Source of the DNA: Sinohyriopsis cumingii
Taxonomy: Eukaryota; Mollusca; Bivalvia; Unionida; Unionidae
Length of the DNA stretch: 64,000 bases
Direction: 5' to 3'
Assembly (NCBI GenBank): GCA_028554795.2
Contig: CM068827.1
Coordinates: forward strand, 139,590,751-139,654,750
Shown: positions 5,295 to 56,935 of the stretch, piece by piece
Numbering within the stretch: position 1 is the first letter of the stretch
How the letters are laid out: every line of letters begins with the position of its first letter
Translations under genes and position numbers: made by a program
The notes under the pieces: generated by a model
What the model was told of the DNA's origin: nothing
The model's input: the letters and a program-made list of their open reading frames with translations, nothing else
Database searches by the model: none

Positions 5295-5784
5295 AGTTAG
5301 AGTAAAGATTAAGAAATGTCCACGGACAAAACATCAACAACTTCAAATGAAAGAAGATAAATATGCGCGAAAAAATATCTTTTTAGACAAGATAAAATTA
5401 CTCGGCTAACCGCAATGGTGGAATGTCACTCTGCAGTTAGACATCATCGTGCTCAGATTCCATGCCATTGACAAAGTGGTTGGCGGCTTCCTTTGCCTTG
5501 ACCCTAAGGACTGTTTTAAGATCTCATTGGGTCCTGTTTGGGACTCTATGGGACTCTAGGGGGATTAAAGCGTTTTTATACATCTGTAACAAAAATAAAG
5601 AAATGAAATTGTTTTAAACTCATAAAGAGTCACCATAATGTCCGTTAATCTAATGATTGTATGAGCTAATGCAACGACGACGAATAGGTTACAAATACAA
5701 GAAAACATTTTTGTGCCTACCTGTAGAATTATGAGATCACATCTCATCATCGTCGTCGTTGTTGTCATCGTCAGTATTATTAAT

Positions 5785-5789
5785 AATAA

Positions 5790-5826
<37 letters not shown>
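5785..5826. repeat. (ATT)n trinucleotide tract
   Basis: ATT units lie directly upstream of a family A SINE. A matching attattattg follows the SINE, so the tract probably contributed the target duplication. Confidence 0.85.
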
Positions 5827-9180: not shown

Positions 9181-9354
9181 TACAAACACATAAACACACA
9201 CACACACACACACACACAATTACACCATGAAAGGAGGGAGTGTTTATATAAACACTACTCCACATTCTCACATTGGCAAATTGAATAGTGTTTCTTTTCT
9301 AGAGTTTTTGGTTAGCCCTGAAAAGGGCTGTGTTTTGGAACTCACATACACCTG

Positions 9355-28880: not shown

Positions 28881-29653
28881 TCACATATTAGTTTTATTAG
28901 TGACAGCGCTTTCTATGTTTGACACATTGACTTGATCCTCTCTTCCTTCTCCTCGTCTTCTTTTTCGAAGACCTATGCAGAAGCAAAGAACATCATTAAA
29001 AGCTTTTCGGAAATGTATGTGTGTCGTGTAATACACGATCCAGTTAACGGAGGGGTGCAGATGAGCCCACATGGCTATGTATGAATGCGCTTCGTGAGAG
29101 AAGGAATTATTGTGATCCACCACAATTATTAAGGCATATGGGATCCAACACACCGAAAATACTGCGTAAACGATGAAAAAAGTCTTTCCCACTTGAACTT
29201 TGACATTTTTGTGAAGAGGATTATTTCTAGCACAGTTCCTCATATGTTTTTGATGTTGGGAGACGTAATAAAAAATTAGAGAGTAGCAGACGCCGATCAA
29301 AATCATGGGCATCCAGACGAGGACGACAGAGAAAACGATCGTGAAAGTGTGATTAGCCATTCTGTCCCAAATGCAAAGGATTGCTTTCCGGTCAAATTGG
29401 TGATCTCCTATACCCGCTAGATTCAGCAAAACCAGAAATACGCCTAATGTATAAAATCCCACACAGAGGCATATACAATTTCTTTTCGTTAAAAATTTGG
29501 AATACAACTTCTGGTGGCAGATGTGGATATACCGATTTAAGCTCAGAGAACCAATCGACATCAACGAGCCTATACAGGATATGGTGCAAATACTTCCGAT
29601 TATCTGACAAAGTCTGGGTATGGAGTTGAAGAATTCTTCACCCTCTAACTTAG
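28881..29653 (-). CDS. Receptor exon 2 (helices 3-7 and C-tail)
   Basis: The exon begins after a strong acceptor (tttatttacttgcag) with the last two bases of the split Ala codon, then KLEGEEFFNSIPRLCQ. It ends in TGA after a basic, then polar, C-tail (GLRKRRRGEGRED; last residues NKTNM). Reading upstream of the acceptor gives an open but non-homologous stretch, which marks the splice site as the true boundary. Confidence 0.93.
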
Positions 29654-31183
29654 CTGCAAGTAAATAAAATATTGTGAGGTACAGAAAATAGTTAACATTG
29701 AAAAGTTGCATAGATGATTTATAACTGCAAAACAAAACGTAAATTGGATGTTGTTTTATAATTATTGTCCCACTCTCTTTATTCTGAGCTTATAGCAGTT
29801 TAATAAAGTAAAGGAGCAGTCATCTAGAGAAGAGGTGGGTATAATTACAAATTATATTGCAGAGAACTCAACTCTAGCCAGACACCGTTACACACGAAAT
29901 CAGGTTATAACCTAAGATTTATACGTTATCCTTCCCTTTGATCTGTACAACAATTGTGATCCTAATGCTGAGTGCATGTAAACTTGTAGCATACCATCAA
30001 TCTTAATTCCATCCTCTGTAAATATTGACATCTACTTTGACTGACAGTGGATGAATTGATCTCCTGTGTACTTCTAATCTTCACAAAATGCGAATGTAAA
30101 GATTAAGTGCCACACTAATTAAATTACAAATCAAACTTGCTCCTGTTCCTGGAAAAGCTGTCCAAATTAACAAGTCGTTATGACGCCTTTACTGTCTTTA
30201 TGTAAACATTTTACTGTGACAATAAAACTAAATCATATTCTGTTCCTAAAGAAACTAAACCATACTCTACGTTCAAGGAAATCTAAATCTAACTCTATGC
30301 CCAAAGAAATCTAAATCATACGGTCTGCCCAAGAAATCTAAATCATATTCTATGCCAAAAGAAAACTAAATCAAACTCTCTGCCCAAAGAAAACCAAATC
30401 ATACGCTCTGCCCAAAGAAATCTAAATCATACTCTATGCTATGCTCAAAGAAATCTAAATCATACGCTCTGCCCAAAGAAGTCTAAATCATACTCTATGC
30501 TCAAAGAAAACAAAATCATAAGCTCTGCCTAAAGAAGTCTAAATCATACTCTATGCCCAAAGAAATCTAAATCATACTCTATGCTCAAAGAAATCTAAAT
30601 CATATTCTGTGTTAATGCTCAAAGAAATCTAAATCATACACTCTGCCCAAAGAAATCATAATCATGCTCTATACTCAAAGAAATCTAAATCATACTCTCT
30701 ACCCAAAGAAATCAAAATCCTACTCTCTGCCCAAAGTAAACACTCATACTCTACATGATAATCTTTTTTGTAAACATGTAAACAATGGTGTTTGGAATCA
30801 GAAATCTATGTTCACTAACAGCGGTCTTACAATAACAAATCCTTAATTCGTGATTTAAATGCAGACTTTGCTTTCATGTACCTACCCACAATGTTCATAG
30901 GATCGGCAATGGCTGTCACGAACATATCTGAGATGGCCAGGTTCACAATAAAGATCGACTCAATATTCCTTAGCTTTTTATGGGTTGCCACGGCAACGAG
31001 AATTAGAATGTTGCCAAACGTGCCCACCACGGATGCTATAGAAACGATGATAATGCTTGGAATGGCAATATGAGGCTTATCTTGAAGAAATTCCAGTCTC
31101 CCAAATACGTCATTGTTACCAAACATGGCGAATGGAGTAGTTTCATTGTTTATCATTTTGTGACTTTCTACGTCTGACAACAT
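28881..31183 (-). CDS. Melatonin-receptor-like class A GPCR, two exons
   Basis: Joining 31,183-30,886 to 29,653-28,881 gives a complete 356-residue protein. It is predicted to be a seven-helix plasma-membrane receptor that signals through heterotrimeric G proteins. Class A landmarks are all present: an N-glycosylation sequon at N13, GN in helix 1 (N58), LAISD in helix 2 (D86), C115 before helix 3 and C193 in extracellular loop 2 for the conserved disulfide, NRY at 139-141 in place of DRY, CWIP at 268-271 in helix 6, and NWIVY at 303-307 in place of NPxxY. The NRY triplet, SICTISCIGSL in helix 3 and HKKLRN after helix 1 are typical of the melatonin receptor group. The intron is phase 1 and completes an Ala codon exactly. 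An in-frame TAA lies directly upstream of the ATG. Ligand specificity cannot be read from sequence, and invertebrate melatonin-like orphans exist. Confidence 0.92.
29654..30885 (-). other. Receptor intron (GT-AG, phase 1, 1,232 bp)
   Basis: The donor is gtaggt on the minus strand (30,885-30,880) and the acceptor is cttgcag (29,660-29,654). It separates helix 2 from helix 3. Melatonin receptor genes of vertebrates also have a single intron in the first half of the coding region; whether the position is exactly conserved needs an alignment. Confidence 0.9.
30222..30750 (+). repeat. About 28-bp minisatellite inside the receptor intron
   Basis: Roughly 18 units of the type gcccaaagaaatctaaatca plus tactctat, with single-base changes and occasional 1-8 base indels. 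It fills nearly half of the intron. Confidence 0.92.
30886..31183 (-). CDS. Receptor exon 1 (N-terminus, helices 1-2)
   Basis: Starts at ATG 31,183-31,181 with an in-frame TAA just upstream (31,186-31,184). It encodes 99 residues plus one base: a ~38-residue extracellular N-terminus with the NET sequon, helix 1 (IIIVSIASVVGTFGNILIL), HKKLRN and helix 2. Reading past the donor gives RYMKAKSAFKS, which is intronic. There is no cleavable signal peptide, as usual for this family. Confidence 0.93.
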
Positions 31184-45259: not shown

Positions 45260-47870
45260 AGCCCTATAAAAACGAATACGGAAATAATAATGATGACTCT
45301 ATTTTATACAAATGTCATCGACAAGGTAGTCAACTACTTAATAATGTAAACAAACAGCGCAGGGGAAATTATGATTATTTTGAGGGGAAATAAATGTATT
45401 TACTCGTCCCCCCACCCCCTAGCAAATGTCCTCGGAGTTGTTTTATGATATGCCCATAAATAAAGTACCCTTTGCTGATAACCAAACAATTAATTATCAT
45501 ATAAAAAAGACGAAGATTAGACCCTCCGATACTGGTATCCACAAAATAAATAGGTGCTAGGACCAGCCTGAAACCACATTTCAACACTAGCACATCATAT
45601 CGCTCTTCTCACATTGTTTTGAGGCAATCCAAGACTGCGTTGATGAAAAAAATACACACCATTGTCTAAACAAAAAATCGAATCTGATCCTTGTAGTCTC
45701 ACATTACTGAACTGAGTTGATACAACATTCCTTCTCATAAAGTAAATAATGTCGTCTCCCAGAGGAGTTGATCAATAAGAATAATCATATTCCACACTCA
45801 GATTGTCCAGAAGGTAGACAGCTACCAAATGATTTCCTGGAAGATGACTGTCGTCTGTGTTGATGATAGGATTGATTTCCTGGAAGATGACTGTCGTCTG
45901 TGTTGATGATAGGCTGGATTTCCTGGAAGATGACTGTCGTCTGTCTTGATGATAGGCTTGAACCTCTTTAGGTTTCTGATATGGAAGTTCATCTTTAGCA
46001 CACACCAAGGATTTCAAGAAACTGTGTACGAATTGTGAGTCAAGAGGTAATGAAGTTCCCATATATTCATTCTTTTCACAGGTAATGATAAGTCTTTCTT
46101 ATAAAAATATCTGTCTAGTAAATAGATAAACCGGATGTCTCTGTACTCTGCTGCAAGACAGCTTCGATGCGCCTTGTTTCGGTTAATGGAGGTAACAATG
46201 GTCACACAAGTCTTTATGCCACTCTTACAAAATCTTCTCTCCTGAGTCCAGGCAATTTTCAGTTTATCTTCCAACTTTTTTCTCATCATCAAACAGTTGT
46301 CGTCTTATTCCGGACTAGGATGATCGATTTGGCAACCATGACAATGTTCTCTGGTCACCAGGCGACGAGCAGAACAGGAGACTGTGTGTTATTGTGTGGT
46401 CTGTGACTGCTGTTCTTGTTCTGGATAGCAAGCATCACCTATCTCATATGTATTTTAATAGTGTAGGATCACGTCAATCAAACTATGGGTTTCCGCAGTA
46501 TTATCGAATTCTGCAAATAATATGATGTTCTCTGCAAACTGACATTCCACGCGAGGTTGAACAGATTTTATAGGGCGGAAATGTCCATTGTCGCTGCTTT
46601 TATATAGAGTGAATAAAATGCACAAAAAGTACATCCGTCCTGCATATTCGTCGTACGAAATGTCCTGATTACTATTGATTCCTACTTGTCCCGTCGCTTT
46701 AGACGGATTTAAATTAGATCTGAAATGTTTTTCTGACCCTGTTAGGTTCCAAGGAGCTGCTACAACGTCTAGCCATTTCAGGTGACATCGGTCTTAAACA
46801 CGTTGAACTGCTGGAACACAAAACTATTTTCATTTTGAAGGCCCCACTGCTGACGATGCCACTGAGTAAACGGCACTCCACTCGTACTGGATGATACTTG
46901 GCTATCGTTGTGCTCAGAGTTGGCCTAAGGTGGTTTCCCTTCTTCGATGTTCTTTTTGTACTCGCTAGCATTAGTAATCAAATGGAACACGGTCCTATTT
47001 TGATTCAGGCTCAGAAGTACACTCACCCCATTGAACAAATACTGGTCTTTCAACCACATATTAAGCGATCCATCATTTCTAATCTACGTTCTTGTTTTAC
47101 TTTGACAATCTTTAAATTCAACATTGTGGTCAGCATCATCATCTGCAATCAAAATCATTGAACTTGTTCAAAATGTCATGTTCCCACATCACCGAAGCAT
47201 TCAGATGTGTGTTCGTGACTTCTTTTTGTTTGTCATGAGATTTTCTATGTTCCATTAGCAGGGGTAAGTGTCCATGCTGCTGCTCATCAGTTTATTATTC
47301 AAGTAATTCTACTTCGCTGAACAACACATCCATGAAACTGTTGGCGGGAATTAATCTGGCGTCAGCACCTGATATGGTGTTGCCTGTTTGGAACAGTAAC
47401 TGTTAGTCATATCAATATAATATGCAGTTGTTTCTCCGTTGATTTCAAATTTGATTGGTGCAGATGTGGCAAAAAAAAAAACACGATAAAATTACATTCA
47501 CCGGGATTTTAGCATCATCATCATCGTCGGTGGCATGACAAACAGATCAAATTTGATTATTTTTTTTTTAAATCTTAGACACTATACTCGCCAATATAAT
47601 TATATACTTTGACAAAAGTAGGGTAATTATATTGGAGGAAATAAGTTTCGTTTCACTGTGGCAATCATTTCAGTAATATCTCTTTCCAAGGAGATCTAAA
47701 AAGTTTAGAAAGGTTTGTGTATGTCTATGTCTTCCATAAAGAAAGGATAGCAGTTTATCAATACGTACTTTTGTAGGAATAGTGTGTGTAAGCAGAGCAT
47801 TACATCTAAGCAAACACTATGCACCATGCATAATTTACTTTTGCCGCTTATAATCTCAAACAGGGAGTTT
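45260..47870. other. No recognisable gene; contains a 43-bp tandem repeat
   Basis: A unit with ggatttcctggaagatgact and gtcgtctgtgttgatgatag repeats three times at 45,829-45,960. The minus strand over 45,770-46,300 and both strands over 46,700-47,160 have ORFs of 80-95 codons without a domain that I can name. Some may be eroded mobile-element coding sequence. Confidence 0.4.
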
Positions 47871-48520: not shown

Positions 48521-49362
48521 GTCTGTCCTTGACTTCTAAAACAAGTTTACACATAGTGCGAGCTTTAAACCTGTCTTAAATAAGAATTGTTGACACTCTC
48601 AACGATGGAAAACGGACAAAAATACCGAATTTCCTAATCACCTTTATCCTCTTGTGTGATAGTATATAAGTATGTTTGTGGGCATAGTGTGTGTATGCAC
48701 TCCTACCCTTGCTTGTGTGTGAAGGTGTCTTTGTGTGTCTTTGTTATTCACAAATTTATAACATTACGACTATATGGTCTTACACTAAGTAACAAAATGA
48801 AGCAAAACAACAAATAGTTTAATTCTCTAAGTTATCAATGAAAATTCTAGAGAAACATATTGTGAATTGAATTCGAAAAAATAATCCTAAAAGTTCTATT
48901 ACAAGTCCAAAAGTATAGAATGTTCCGAACGAATTCAAATAATCTTGAACGTGTTTGTCTTGAGTGTCTTGTAAGCCTTAATGTCTTTGAATTAAGTTAC
49001 AATAATCCCAAAACAATGTTTTAATCCATAGTCAAGGAGCACTTTGTAATTCCAATGAATTAATTAAATAAATGATTCCTCTCAAATTACATCTGAACAC
49101 AACTAAAAGTGATTCCACTAGACCGATATTAAAATGTGAATCAATCATTTTGTTAAAAGATAAAAACCTAAGACACAATAAAATAACCAGGATGTGGGTC
49201 AGGAGTTCATCTTCAGAACATTTAAAGTTTCTTTAAAAATAAAACTTGAAGTAACAGTAAACAACCTATTTATAACTCAGAAATGTAAATAGGCACACAC
49301 TAACATTCTATTCTCAATCATGGACGAAGGTGAAGCACACAAAATAAGTTAAATATACAAAC
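48521..49362. other. Old dispersed repeat and intergenic DNA
   Basis: 48,770-49,215 is the diverged partner of 40,960-41,290 (shared cctctcaaattacatc and gaacacaactaaaagtgatt). Nothing else is recognised. Confidence 0.45.
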
Positions 49363-51934: not shown

Positions 51935-52350
51935 TGTTTAGAACATCCGAAAACAATATTAAACTCGTTTGAGCTATTTTGCAACACGTTTAAGCTAGTT
52001 TGGAAGTCGTTTTAGGGACTTTGAATCCCGTTTGAACAAGTTTCAAAACTCGTTTGAACGAAAATATAATTCGTATATAAGAGTTTAAAAGTCGTTAAAA
52101 CGAGTTTCTAACTCGTTTTACTGACTTTTAAATTAGTTTGAATGATCAAAAGTTTCCTTTTGAACAACTTGTAAGCTCCTTAAATGACTTAAATCTGTTC
52201 GAAATGAATCGTTTAAAATACTTCTACAATAGTTCAGACCAGACAAAAAGTACTTGCAAAGTGACATCTAAACTTGCTCAAAGGAGATATAATCTCCTTC
52301 AAACGAGTTTAACAAATCGTTCATGAAAGATTTAAAGTCGTTTAAACGAT
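51935..52350 (+). repeat. Degenerate repeats built on actcgtttgaacg
   Basis: About 15 occurrences of words such as aactcgtttgaacg, agtcgttttaaacg and aacgagttt on both strands, with a spacing near 20-25 bp. The motif is partly palindromic. The array ends about 100 bp before the Polinton relic. Confidence 0.65.
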
Positions 52351-52459
52351 TCAAAGGATTAAAGTGATTGCAGTTTCTGATCCTGCTAAAGCATAAACAA
52401 TACTACAAAATATGTAAGTTGGACAATGAATTCTCTTATATATCAGCATACCAACTGTA

Positions 52460-52938
52460 ATTCAATTAAGGCATCTCGTGAGAGAGCATGGGATACGAAT
52501 ACCATGCGGTATAAGAAAAGATGACATACTTGTAACGCTAGGACCAAAAGAACCATGGTCAACAGTAAAAGCAAACTCGTGAAATCGCAGTGCAGCATTA
52601 TATCAAGATTCTTAAAAAAAAAGCTAAACGGGCTCAAATAATATGGGTTGTTTCTGATGAACAAGAACGTCGTTGCCGTATTACACTTACCACTGCTAAT
52701 GAGGCTGCCGCAAAGCACGATAATTACAGGTGCCACGTTCGAGTTGCATAAACTCCGTGGTGTTTTACAACATCGAGCAATTATCCCGGCTGAATACGAG
52801 CCATGTAAAGACACGGTAAAACTTCTTTCAAATATGTGTCCAGGAATCACATCAACAGTATTCATTAGTATTTCATTATACCACTTAACAATGCATCTAA
52901 AATCACAAATCCATGGATTTATAACGGTGTTCGTTTAA
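52460..52938 (+). pseudogene. Polinton coding relic upstream of the polymerase
   Basis: A basic stretch in one frame (about 52,605-52,750) contains KKKAKRAQIIWVVSDEQE and RCRITLTTANEAAAKHD. The frame then shifts and the open segment to 52,938 contains EYEPCKDTVKLLSNMCPG. Both pieces look like one protein split by a frameshift. Its function is not assigned. It may be an N-terminal part of, or a neighbour to, the polymerase. Confidence 0.5.
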
Positions 52939-52984
52939 TCCCTACATCCTATTCAGCAATCGATATTCACGCGCAGGCAGTATA

Positions 52985-54250
52985 ATATTGATTTGTTACT
53001 GCTGCACAGCCCACAGTCGTTATACCATTTCGCGTGGATCAACGAACAATATATGGGCATAGACAATCTAAGGGCAGGAAATTTCCATGCAGACGTGTAT
53101 GTATGTAGTACCCAATGATACTTGATAAGCATGACCTTTACTGCGGAGGAATCAGTGAAAGGCTGCAGCGCACCTTCATTTCAGAATATGGTAAAACATT
53201 CTGAAATTTACAGTAGTACAATGAAAAATGAAAGTAACGTACATCATCTACGTGGACTTCGAATGTCTTAATATTTCCAGGTTGTCACCTGAGGTTCAAT
53301 CGAATACCATGCATCTAGCTGAACAAATCCGATTATACTGTTGTCAGATGTGACGGGCAAACTAAGTCATACATTGTTATTTCGTGGCCACTGCTAACTT
53401 GAGGTGTTTCTGAAACTGATGGATGTTGCGGCGAAATGCATCAGACGACAATTCTGCTCTCTCATAGATATGATTATGACTAACGATAACATTCACGAGA
53501 TTTCAGAAGCCACTCAGTGCAGGATCTCCTATCGCACTGTTAGCTCCACTAACGGCAAAGAGGGCAATCACTGTCACACTACTTATGTGTCTATAGGAGC
53601 AGCACATGACACATGCAATCTACAGTTGCGAATTTACCCAAACAAAACAAAATCACTGTGGTGCATCATAACCTGCGTTGGTATGATGGCCATCTAATAA
53701 TGCGAGGAACTGCAACAGCATCAAAGGTGCCAATACGCGTAATCCCTAATAACATAGATGAATACATAACGTTTAGGCTGGGTCAGCTGCAGTTCATTGA
53801 CTCATTACAGTTTGTGAATTCGAACCTGGACAAGCTAGTCAGTAACCTTGGTATTGATCGTCTTAAAATCAGCTTTCGATATGGTACCATTAACACCGAC
53901 AAGCTGAAGTTGAAAAGCTGAAAAGGAATGTATTCCCAGGAGTAGTTAAGCGGATGGGATAATTTTACTGAAACACAGTTACCAGGTCGAGGCATTCCAT
54001 TCGTCGTTCTCTCGCAACGGCACTTCCGCCAACGACTATGAACATGCAAACAAATGTCTGTCTGATCTAGGCCTGTCGGTGGTCCTACGCTGTTTGGCGC
54101 CGTCCTGACATTAAACCTCGTCTTTGTAGAGCGACGAAAACAGCTTTCCGATCCCACGAAGTGATCCTGCACGATTCGACTCTCACACATATTTGGATTT
54201 TGCAGACACGTTCGTAAACTTATTCTAGGGACCCAGCATACAGTCACAGT
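52985..54250 (+). pseudogene. Protein-primed DNA polymerase B relic (exonuclease part)
   Basis: In the living element this enzyme replicates the DNA using a protein primer. From the 5' side: a His/Cys-rich region (YHFAWINEQYMG, about 53,018), the Exo I motif DFE (53,255-53,263), a Cys/His segment (GAAHDTCNLQLRI, about 53,600), the Exo II motif with NLRWYDGHLI (Asn at 53,670), FIDSLQFVNSNLDKLV (about 53,793), GWDNFTETQLP (about 53,955) and NDYEHANK (about 54,031). The frame 53,613-53,921 is open and continues in frame past a TGA. The palm motifs, including the DTDS box, are absent, so the catalytic half is deleted. The match is to DNA polymerase type B, organellar/viral (DNA_pol_B_2). Confidence 0.85.
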
Positions 54251-54378
54251 AACCGGTAAGAATCACGCTAACAATGTAGTTTGGTGTGTTGTTAATGGCT
54301 CTGAGGACGGTAAAGTTGAGTTATCCAAATTTAGGCTTTAGATGCATTAAATGAATCTCCCTCAATAGACAAAGAGAA

Positions 54379-54633
54379 ATGTTTGACGACATTTGTCGAG
54401 TCTGGTATAACATTTATGATGTCATTCCACACAGTGACTACAGACTCTACTCAGAGCACTATTCTGTGAGCATTTGCATGGCAAAAAAAAGTACCCAAAA
54501 AGGTTTTTGCTTACCCCGGCACGTGTTCATATCTTTTCAGCTCCTGGCCAAAATAAACACCCAAACGGTAGGTTTGATGATATTTTCACCACTGACAGTG
54601 ACCCATCTCTCGCTGAGGCGTAACGGTAATTAA
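54379..54633 (+). pseudogene. Unassigned Polinton ORF
   Basis: An 84-codon open frame (FDDICRVWYNIYDVIPHSDY; later LPRHVFISFQLLAKI) lies between the polymerase and the capsid-protease region. Collinear text continues after its stop in the same style (IFLDLGNLLLKYLG near 54,650), so the original gene was longer. I do not recognise the family. Its position suggests an element gene. Confidence 0.45.
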
Positions 54634-54801
54634 GAACCAACCCAGGACATTTTCCTCGACTTAGGAAATCTGCTGTTGAAATACCTGGGCCGCACCAGTG
54701 AACAATTCATAGAATTTATAACTTAACTTGTAATGTGAAATATGTCACATCTACAGTAACTTGTTACGTTCAGCCGATGTAAACTCGAAGAGATCTCAGC
54801 C

Positions 54802-54990
54802 GTGATGAAAAAAAAAAACCGGAGTCATTTGAAACTTTCCGGAGACAAGTTATCTGGGACCACCCCACTAACGTGGACACCGATGCAGGCGCAACAGTTT
54901 GAAGCAGCGAAACGTCAAAGGTGGAATATTTCCATTCCTCGAGGGCATTCCAGAGCTGTTAGCGGCCGCTGCTTATGCTGTTGAAAGAGC
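54802..54990 (+). pseudogene. Possible Polinton minor-capsid (pVI-like) relic
   Basis: A basic segment TPMQAQQFEAAKRQRWNISI is followed by IPELLAAAAYAVERAVA in a shifted frame near 54,945-54,995. A lysine/arginine-rich repeat followed by an Ala-rich hydrophobic helix is the layout of the small membrane-active capsid protein in Polintons and adenoviruses. This is inferred from composition and position and is weak at residue level. Confidence 0.35.
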
Positions 54991-55064
54991 GGTTGCATAA
55001 GGGTCGTTGGAAGTGAATATGGGATGGCTCTAAAACTAGCGATCTGTGTAAATAGTCTTCGATT

Positions 55065-55300
55065 ATACAGGTGTGGGAGTCACCGGCTCCTGAGCAAAAG
55101 TGGTCTTCGGTTGTGGTCTCGCTGTTGATACGTCCATTGACTGATTATGATTTACTCGCGATGACAAAATCAAACATTTCTGGGGTGTTTTCATATGGAA
55201 TGAACTTCCATCGTGGAATCATAGAATCTGATGTGTCTGTTGCCTCTGTCAAAGACCACATCATTGATGCCAGTGCTGAGATGGAGGAATAAGTGGATGC
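55065..55300 (+). pseudogene. Possible Polinton cysteine protease (adenain-like) N-terminal relic
   Basis: RPLTDYDLLAM (about 55,123) is followed, in another frame, by KIKHFWGVFIWNELP (about 55,170). That spacing and wording resemble the N-terminal part of Polinton PRO, which cleaves capsid precursors. The catalytic His and Cys regions are not identifiable, and the frame is broken. Confidence 0.45.
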
Positions 55301-55690
55301 CAAAGCTGCCGAGGTGCTATCAACCGTACCAACACGAATATGCGTGGCAAGTTCATGGACAGAGCTGAATAAATATTAACCAATGAAGCAGAGATACAAA
55401 ATGAAAGCGAAATAAATGGTCTGTTTGTTTTCCATGTTGTCGGGGATGCTTTTGATATACCTGAACCTCCCATCTTTGAGATCCACAAATCTGTAACAGA
55501 GTTGATCATTTTAACCGGAAAATGACAACCGGCATGATGGTCCACAAATATCACATGTCGACGTTAGCAGTGTTGCAGAATCTTGCATATTTACATTAAC
55601 AGGACCGCTGGCCGCCGGAGATGAAATTCAGTTTCAAGGATTCAAAACATACCGATACGGGCACTTTACCACTTTTATTGTTTTTATTTA
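55301..55690 (+). pseudogene. Unassigned Polinton segment, jelly-roll-like end
   Basis: Broken frames include FVFHVVGDAFDIPEPPIFEI (about 55,428) and TGPLAAGDEIQFQGFKTY (about 55,600), ending FTTFIVFI. The Gly-Asp-Glu turn and beta-rich end suggest a C1q/TNF-like or penton-type jelly roll, but this is only a fold-level guess. Function unknown. Confidence 0.3.
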
Positions 55691-55788
55691 AGATTAGAGC
55701 TTACGCGAAAGAGATATGCAATATCTGTCTATCTTGACCATTAATATACTGTCTTTCCCCTTACAGTTTGTATAGATGCGAATTGATT

Positions 55789-56025
55789 TTAGGCTCTTAT
55801 GCATATAAGGTTGTCATCTTTCAGGTTGCAGAAATTGTTCAAATCTGTTGTTAAGTCCCCTCCTTGAATTTCTTGCAGTCCACGTTCAATACCGGTATCT
55901 ATGGCAAAACAGCCGGTATAGTAAGTAAACAAAGTTTCTTCATCCAACGTATTAAAATCTTTGCAGTCAGTCGTTAACATGTCTTCCCAGCCAGTCATTT
56001 GACAGTCACAGCCACCTTCAACCAT
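55789..56025 (-). CDS. Unrecognised 78-residue acidic ORF, antisense within the Polinton
   Basis: An intact ATG-to-stop frame rich in Asp/Glu and Cys (MVEGGCDCQMTGWEDMLTT; ends KDDNLICIRA). It sits in the gap between the protease-side region and the capsid gene. Polintons carry genes on both strands, so it could be a small element gene. It could also be chance. No family recognised. Confidence 0.3.
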   Translation of the reverse strand: MVEGGCDCQMTGWEDMLTTDCKDFNTLDEETLFTYYTGCFAIDTGIERGLQEIQGGDLTTDLNNFCNLKDDNLICIRA

Positions 56026-56079
56026 TGTGATTTAGCTATACTAGCTTGTTGAAAAGAGGCGCGTGAACGCAAATAAAAA

Positions 56080-56935
56080 ACAACCACTATGAGTATGTCG
56101 TCTCAATATGAAAACAACTCGACCCATTTCGTTCTCTTCGACGCACGATCAGTGTAATGGGAGTCCGCAACACCACTGTTGAGACTAATAACCCACCCCG
56201 ACGAGAACGACGTGATTGTGCCAGGCACCGCTAGAATGGCCTTCTCGTTTGTTTTAATAAGAGTGCAGGTGCAAACGGCAACCGCTAGAACGTAAAAAAA
56301 ACCTTGGTCGCACTATCGATAAAAAGATCATTGTAACGCTGTGAAGTAAATGAATTGGCTTGCATTGACGATACAGCCATCTTTGGCGTCTGCAATGATC
56401 CTTGGATGGCGGAGAAAGAGCTGACCAGCTCTGTTTGTCAGGGAATCCATAATGAAAACACTACTAGAATCGGTTATTGACAGCAAGCTCGACTAGTCTA
56501 ATGCAGCTGCGTTTATCTGAGCTGCTCAATTTCTAGCCGCTACATGACCGTATGCCATTCCACCAGCCAGACCTTTCAGACCGCCTCACCGTTGAGCTGA
56601 CATCTAACGAATACAGCAGGGTGTTCAAGAGAACTGAAGGTAGGGGTAGGGGAGCTACATCAACAGCGGAATTTCATTGGAATTCCAAACCGTTGTCAAC
56701 CCGGACCTGGCCTCTATGATTAGAAATTAATACATGGGAAAAGTGGAGATTCTATATTCGCAAGTTCTTAGCCATCGTAGGATGGTGGTGAATAAGAGTT
56801 ACAGCGTGCGAGATATCAAACTAAATATCACTCCTGTTCAAAACATTAGAGCAACCGTACTCTTGTTTGATCATTCAACAAACGTAGGTTTCGCACGTGA
56901 TACTGGGTACAAAATCTATGCCGAACGGGGTCGAG
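56080..56935 (+). pseudogene. Polinton double-jelly-roll major capsid protein relic
   Basis: Collinear pieces in shifting frames match the Polinton/adintovirus major capsid protein: DENDVIVPGTARMAF (56,200), DDTAIFGVCNDPWMAEKE and CQGIHNENTT (56,367 onward), DRMPFHQPDLSDRLTVEL (56,546 onward) and an open C-terminal part at 56,734-56,931 (VEILYSQVLSHRRMVVNKSY; LLFDHSTNVGFARDTGYK). The usual C-terminal end of the second jelly roll is missing. At about 56,935 the sequence switches to GC-rich unrelated DNA. This protein builds the icosahedral shell in related viruses. Here it is clearly dead. Confidence 0.82.

Follow-up and report, generated by a model that had tools for sequence, protein, structure and literature searches.

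A probable Polinton/Maverick-type relic carrying polymerase and capsid-type pieces in the genome of Sinohyriopsis cumingii

The window, the whole 64,000-nt stretch of Sinohyriopsis cumingii DNA that was analysed, raises the question of whether the broken coding pieces at 52.35–56.92 kb are the remains of a virus-like element and, if so, of one element or two. A sequence-only reading had proposed an endogenous, dead Polinton-type element in which genes for family-B DNA polymerase (PolB) and for a capsid-type protein share a strand, and this proposal was supported. The region (+ strand) is very probably a dead Polinton/Maverick-type relic, the remnant of one ancient endogenous DNA virus copy, and this core reading holds with or without the hexon-like piece at its right end as a member. 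The left edge lies near 52,326–52,354, as judged by blastn and tblastx against other copies (L015, L016 and L021). The right edge, at about 56,921, coincides with the start of a high-copy repeat, and the right end of the relic is cut there by this other repeat.

The leftmost piece (52326..52546, +) comprises a PolB N-terminal region with a short helix-extension-helix (SAP/HeH-like) motif. It was recognised by tblastn in 4 of 20 other copies (E 3e-7 to 1e-4) and by blastn/tblastx matches to L015, L016 and L021, and matched Pfam HeH at E 0.056 only. Collinear tblastx and blastn alignments with other copies then define the N-terminal region (52777..53340, +) up to YVDFECLN (within 53,225–53,340), which we take to be the Exo I motif and which contains the DFE residues singled out earlier. 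The exonuclease domain follows at 53398..54063 (+), identified by PF03175, tblastn, other genome places and DNA matches. Its segment NLRWYDGHLIM...FIDSLQF (53,637–53,915) matched PF03175 at E 1.9e-4 in the profile search suggested with the sequence-only reading; its score of 20.9 bits is below the curated Pfam cut-off of 25.8. A DNA polymerase family in PHROGs matched the PolB piece at E 0.0029; PHROGs offered no helpful match to the remaining pieces, and PDB no helpful match to any piece. PolB ORFs with long open frames at eight of eight loci in the same genome matched 53,655–53,900 by tblastn (six at E 3e-5 to 2e-4, two at E 0.001), with about 26% identity between the long-frame PolB and the relic piece. 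None of 300 dinucleotide shuffles equalled the real score with any of five queries. The PolB residues first picked out from the letters are upheld. A match of the PolB piece to 6-phosphofructokinase in Pfam and PDB was taken as chance.

At least 149 other places in the genome are related to the PolB piece (150 of 15,822 candidates scored); across these 149, open frames do not exceed 258 aa. Nucleotide identity between the relic and 20 copies ranges from 66 to 76%, with a mean of 71%. Differences at the three codon positions amount to 0.29/0.18/0.40, a pattern biased by the picking of the 20 copies mostly from the best protein matches; it suggests that part of the divergence accrued under coding constraint. 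The relic itself most likely has no present-day activity.

Of the family-B polymerase, the relic retains only the exonuclease half; palm and thumb were not found, the palm being absent from about 54,060 onward. The same point marks a break in the DNA matches. Sixteen of 53 other matches stop at 54,019–54,064, in the last 45 nt up to 54,064, and no match among the 53 crosses that position (40 of 1,254 candidates scored, a sample rather than an exhaustive set); by tblastx, two of the 20 copies align weakly as far as 54,087–54,093. Past the break, other copies run on into PolB-type coding sequence. A strict scan for three sequence motifs was positive in 6 of the 20 copies (at least one motif each), with the palm type present in 4 copies, and was negative for the relic. 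A single deletion at about 54,060 may have removed the PolB palm and the start of the next gene together.

That next gene is a double-jelly-roll (DJR)-like relic (PF21738; 54066..54693, +) from which about the first 160 codons are gone. It was located by tblastn with ORF pieces of L039–L042 (E 4e-15 at 54,066–54,344 and 9e-10 at 54,490–54,693), and 0 of 300 shuffles equalled its real score; it would have encoded the major capsid protein. Further along the same strand lies a scrap of a small 'GGIFP' protein (54890..54961), recognised by tblastx to L015 and L023 and by its same place in the gene order, direct tblastn being weak (E 0.8–2.9). A scrap of an adenain-like cysteine protease (55077..55213, +) was matched by tblastx to L015, L023 and L028, with direct tblastn reaching just E 0.27–0.67. 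The part of L015 that contains the matched stretch (5331–5798) aligned at E 6e-18 with a protease ORF of the long-frame kind, which itself matched Pfam Peptidase_C5 at just E 0.05–0.08. Next comes a coiled-coil gene relic (55215..55698, +) with DNA matches at 8 other places and tblastx matches to L028 and L033; its label derives from weak Pfam hits of an ORF of L043, and that it is possibly fibre-like is our guess. A repeated stretch of unassigned content (55732..55961) matches one other place at 71%. The DJR-like gene (54,066–54,693), the two scraps and the coiled-coil gene had all been missed in the sequence-only reading. Gene order is kept elsewhere in the genome: among the 20 fetched copies, PolB is followed on its own strand by the DJR-like gene in 7 and the protease is present in 4, and a further locus at C16:71,267,725-71,276,134 (+) has PolB and coiled-coil pieces in the order and strand of the relic.

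Neither integrase nor packaging ATPase was matched at 52–57 kb by the corresponding long-frame ORFs, consistent with the earlier statement that these ends are missing; the relic is truncated and the queries are distant, such that scraps could escape. A search for terminal repeats across 46–64 kb gave just short pairs (20–55 nt, 70–91% complementary), some of them bracketing the relic and none convincing. An array of AACTCGTTT at 51.96–52.34 kb was dropped as a candidate terminus because 0 of the 20 copies carry the array form. Elsewhere in the window, a second relic (46453..47554, −) corresponds to a 448-aa gene found in the long-frame PolB family, with tblastn at E 3e-43 in three pieces spanning residues 24–448, blastn identity of 66–68% and 0 of 300 shuffles equal to the real score. 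The 448-aa gene has no match in Pfam or PDB; we presume it to be capsid-type. A scrap at 48523..48647 (+) resembles the integrase of the same family (69% nucleotide identity across 111 nt by blastn, E 1e-5; tblastn E 0.003), its source ORF matching rve at E 6e-14.

The rightmost piece (56021..56921, +), for which 'hexon-like' is our working label, was identified by tblastx to L044 (E 3e-16) and, for its N-terminal part, to L052 (E 6e-5). A query with L044 gave 39 hexon-like places, two of which are the query locus and the window's own piece; for the pieces at 56.2–56.9 kb, 0 of 300 shuffles equalled the real score. The piece at 56.02–56.92 kb belongs to a real decayed coding family. The earlier reading of 56.2–56.9 kb as pieces of a major capsid protein stands as far as coding is concerned, but the DJR name does not, the hexon-like piece having no named match in Pfam, PHROGs or PDB. 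Scans of viral contigs with the PolB piece, with the DJR ORF, and with two hexon-like pieces plus one alignment gave nothing of use. Pattern searches hit prokaryote genomes and viral contigs, but these hits were set aside as chance (L047 looks by eye like an acyl-ligase-type gene; L050 and L051 are short frames), as was a likeness of the hexon-like piece to a 519-aa ORF (E 0.05).

The hexon-like piece is tied to the relic by position in the window alone, and a reading with somewhat less than even prospects is that two relics adjoin, a Polinton with PolB, DJR-like, protease and coiled-coil genes (52.35–55.7 kb) and a hexon-like gene of another lineage (56.02–56.92 kb), brought together by chance or nested insertion. 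At none of three other hexon-like loci (on C3, C1 and C131) was a PolB, DJR or protease match present upstream within about 4.4, 1.4 and 2.6 kb, respectively. The claim that 56.2–56.9 kb is the same element's DJR major capsid protein is unsupported in that form; the Pfam DJR-like gene is a different, nearer piece. With 40 of 99 candidates scored, the hexon piece has DNA matches at no fewer than 5 other places, versus at least 53 for 52,460–54,064 (40 of 1,254 candidates scored) and 51 for 54,064–55,700. Among the 39 hexon-like places, compared by eye, the window's own alone lies within 20 kb of any of 150 listed PolB places, and three old copies extend about 1–2 kb beyond the coiled-coil gene without a hexon-like match. 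On the other hand, the piece and the rest of the relic share a strand, lie about 0.3 kb apart and are decayed alike; many of the loci concerned carry insertions; and PolB neighbours were sought among 150 listed places of 15,822 candidates, so that an absent neighbour proves little. It is unlikely, though conceivable, that the whole represents an extinct Polinton lineage with two large capsid-type genes (PF21738 DJR-like and hexon-like) beside PolB, of which no full-length copy is left in the host.

Adintoviruses, animal viruses with adenovirus-like capsid genes, combine PolB with such capsid and protease genes, and such a virus, as opposed to a narrow-sense Polinton, is a possible but doubtful source, one that the hexon-like piece and the scrap of adenain-like protease would suit. 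That the likenesses arose by chance in broken translations, with no element present, is scarcely credible. The sub-threshold Pfam score of the PolB piece would agree with chance, but the shuffles of all five queries, the 149 or more related genome places and the DJR-like tblastn matches have already refuted it.

By analogy with its family, the Polinton/Maverick-type element favoured here would have been a linear dsDNA element that was inserted by its own integrase, entered the germ line and multiplied, with copying by protein-primed PolB, a capsid, and maturation by the adenain-like protease. Many sister places of the relic exist in the genome. After insertion, this copy would have drifted neutrally, with deletion.

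The relic is a known type of genomic fossil and adds one more decayed Polinton to the S. cumingii genome. In this animal genome of 2.9 Gb, a PolB lineage is known just from short decayed pieces, and one or two further Polinton sets keep long open frames, which makes the genome usable as a fossil record of the DNA viruses of animals. Within-genome comparison can recognise decayed copies that profile libraries barely detect.

Among the long-frame sets, the PolB family (L001–L008, L037 and L053) encodes a PolB homologue of the relic, with a packaging-ATPase-type ORF (Pox_A32, E 1e-7) and an rve integrase ORF (E 6e-14) nearby; it differs in its long open frames and in its 448-aa gene, which belongs to another family with no Pfam hit. 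A DJR-like 456-aa family (L040–L043), for which no PolB was found, has its DJR-like gene, GGIFP protein, adenain-like protease and coiled-coil protein ordered as in the relic, but its frames are open and a 519-aa gene lies downstream of the DJR-like gene, whereas in two old copies that gene lies upstream. With Polinton/Maverick elements (PMC4028283), the relic shares a family-B polymerase piece, a putative cysteine protease scrap, a DJR-type gene and dispersed chromosomal copies; it differs in consisting of fragments, with integrase, ATPase and termini not found within the stretch. In a survey of vertebrate Mavericks (PMC8097293), stops, frameshifts and insertions have eroded 96% of the 3,511 loci mapped; the relic is eroded likewise and, since most vertebrate loci are fossils, is in itself ordinary. 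The vertebrate elements, as described there, carry PolB and the capsid/protease genes as two modules on opposite strands, whereas the PolB, DJR-like gene and protease scrap of the relic share one strand.

Stop-free pieces of the region 52.3-57.2 kb were searched one by one. A 103-residue piece at 53,610-53,918 (+) matched the Pfam PolB family PF03175 with an E-value of 1.9e-4, although its score of 20.9 bits falls below the curated cut-off of 25.8. The interval 53,655-53,900 was also matched, at ∼25-27% identity, by the PolB ORFs of the long-frame family of the same genome (L001-L008; E 3e-5 to 2e-4 for six of the eight loci and 0.001 for two), two of these queries having a stop within a matched part. 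Five queries (two for PolB, two for the DJR-like gene and one for the hexon-like piece) were run against 300 dinucleotide-shuffled versions of the region, and none attained its real score there; Exo I can be read as YVDFECLN at 53,225-53,340. The PolB residues claimed by the sequence-only reading, and with them the PolB half of the finding, are therefore real. The relic yielded no palm, integrase, ATPase or termini.

Within the 2.9-Gb assembly the PolB piece recurs at no fewer than 149 other places with 40-66% identity (best 150 of 15,822 candidates scored), and none of the 149 listed has an open frame longer than 258 aa. PF03175, in contrast, gave at least 150 matches with frames of 648-1,363 aa, a few with an internal stop (75 of 21,499 candidates scored). 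At the sequence level this difference indicates that the relic is a member of a decayed set distinct from the long-frame set, which is probably the younger of the two. Behind PolB, the long-frame set carries an ORF for a packaging-type ATPase (Pox_A32, E 1e-7; FtsK, E 1e-4), and a further ORF encodes a chromodomain-bearing integrase (rve, E 6e-14; Chromo, E 1e-7). Twenty relic copies, chosen mostly among the best matches, were fetched; all 20 share the PolB stretch, and jointly they are collinear with parts of 52.35-55.7 kb. Compared across 211 nt, they show 66-76% identity to the relic (mean 71%). Differences by codon position were 0.29, 0.18 and 0.40, a pattern exaggerated by picking copies on protein match, and indicate that part of the divergence accrued while the copies were still coding. 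Two PolB relics that lie 40.5 kb from each other shortly before the start of the window (G000, the S. cumingii assembly, C4:139526865 and C4:139567367) have near-equal scores and the same kinds of stops, and so are probably a local duplication.

A DJR-like gene follows PolB on the same strand in 7 of the 20 copies, and a protease is present in four. The Pfam DJR-like family PF21738 had at least 126 genomic matches, mostly open frames of 455-458 aa (126 of 15,190 candidates scored), and in the window, ORF pieces from four of these loci aligned to 54,066-54,344 with E-values down to 4e-15 and to 54,490-54,693 with E-values down to 9e-10. This gene escaped the sequence-only reading. Scraps of a small GGIFP protein, an adenain-like protease and a coiled-coil gene follow 3′ in that order; each is weak singly, yet the order is retained and other copies link them to long-frame relatives. 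Relative to the DJR-like gene, a 519-aa gene lies 5′ in two old copies (L017 6551-7319 and L021 6129-6395, minus-strand orientation of the loci) and 3′ in the long-frame family (L043), which at sequence level is a gene-order change.

The interval 52,460-56,935 has at least 53 other DNA matches (40 of 1,254 candidates scored): 16 of those listed stop at 54,019-54,064 and none crosses; by tblastx, two of the 20 copies extend weakly to 54,087-54,093. In other copies coding sequence with PolB-type motifs continues past the 54,064 point, and a stringent search for three known motifs found at least one in six of the 20 copies (palm-type in four) and none in the relic frames. The DJR-like match in the relic starts near codon 160. 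A single deletion at about 54,060, removing the PolB palm and the start of the DJR-like gene, would account for both losses. Among 54 other matches to 54,064-56,935, 12 stop at 54,912-54,921 and 10 at 55,206-55,216. At the former point one copy aligns across and two (C8:56.836 Mb and C2:154.534 Mb) carry ∼55-60 nt that the relic lacks, which makes a small deletion likely; none of the matches listed crosses the latter. The right edge, at ∼56,921, is the start of a high-copy repeat. To the left, 51962-52343 holds a degenerate AACTCGTTT/AAGTCGTTT motif cluster (7/9 of the window's total) with weak inverted repeats; none of the 20 PolB copies has such an array. A reverse-transcriptase-like scrap at 52169-52291 (-), presumably a LINE, matches L044 2827-2949 by tblastx.

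The piece at 56,021-56,921 (+), read from sequence alone as the major capsid protein, has relatives elsewhere (L044, tblastx E 3e-16; L052, N-terminal match, E 6e-5) but no name in Pfam, PHROGs or PDB; 'hexon' is our assumption. The window's 65-residue piece was found at six other genome places, and a 69-residue piece of L044 at 39, counting L044 and the window. Strand and spacing make it somewhat more likely that the hexon-like piece and the rest of the relic are one element. Two neighbouring relics, with the hexon-like piece separate from the PolB/DJR element, are a serious rival: ∼4.4, 1.4 and 2.6 kb upstream of three hexon-like loci gave no match to PolB, DJR, protease or long-frame-family genes, and hexon-like DNA has matches at five or more other places, far fewer than other relic parts. 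Four hexon-like relics on C11 of G000 (84.49, 84.90, 85.75 and 86.77 Mb) have similar scores and stops, which suggest amplification of a single dead copy.

A second relic, absent from the earlier reading, lies at 46,453-47,554 (-) as three pieces of a 448-aa gene of the long-frame PolB family (E 3e-43, 0/300 shuffles); the query ORF (L053) comes from one copy, where it follows PolB at 6.4 kb. Pfam and PDB give the gene no name, and we take it to be capsid-type. An integrase-like scrap lies at 48,523-48,647 (+); along 111 nt its DNA is 69% identical to the integrase ORF of the long-frame family. Together these make it most likely that the window holds relics of two Polinton lineages. The PolB/448-aa and DJR-456 sets are inferred to be two families, since the stretches read of the PolB/448-aa set showed no PF21738 gene, and those read of the DJR-456 set no PolB. 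At 9193-9336 (-) the window is 76% identical to L053 2842-2980, a stretch beside the 448-aa gene, and exons of a rhodopsin-type receptor gene lie at 28884-29789 (-) and 30830-31183 (-) (Pfam 7tm_1, E 1e-24 and 1e-8).

PMC4028283 gives the Polinton family an integrase, protein-primed polymerase, DJR capsid, packaging ATPase and protease; attributed by family, such activities would have been those by which the relic's ancestor worked. Among the paper titles listed on Polintons, Mavericks or adintoviruses, molluscs included, none concerned this set, which may nevertheless have been reported; PMC11071308 is not decisive on whether it was already known. According to PMC8097293, 96% of mapped vertebrate Maverick loci are such fossils, so that by analogy the relic is an expected kind of object.
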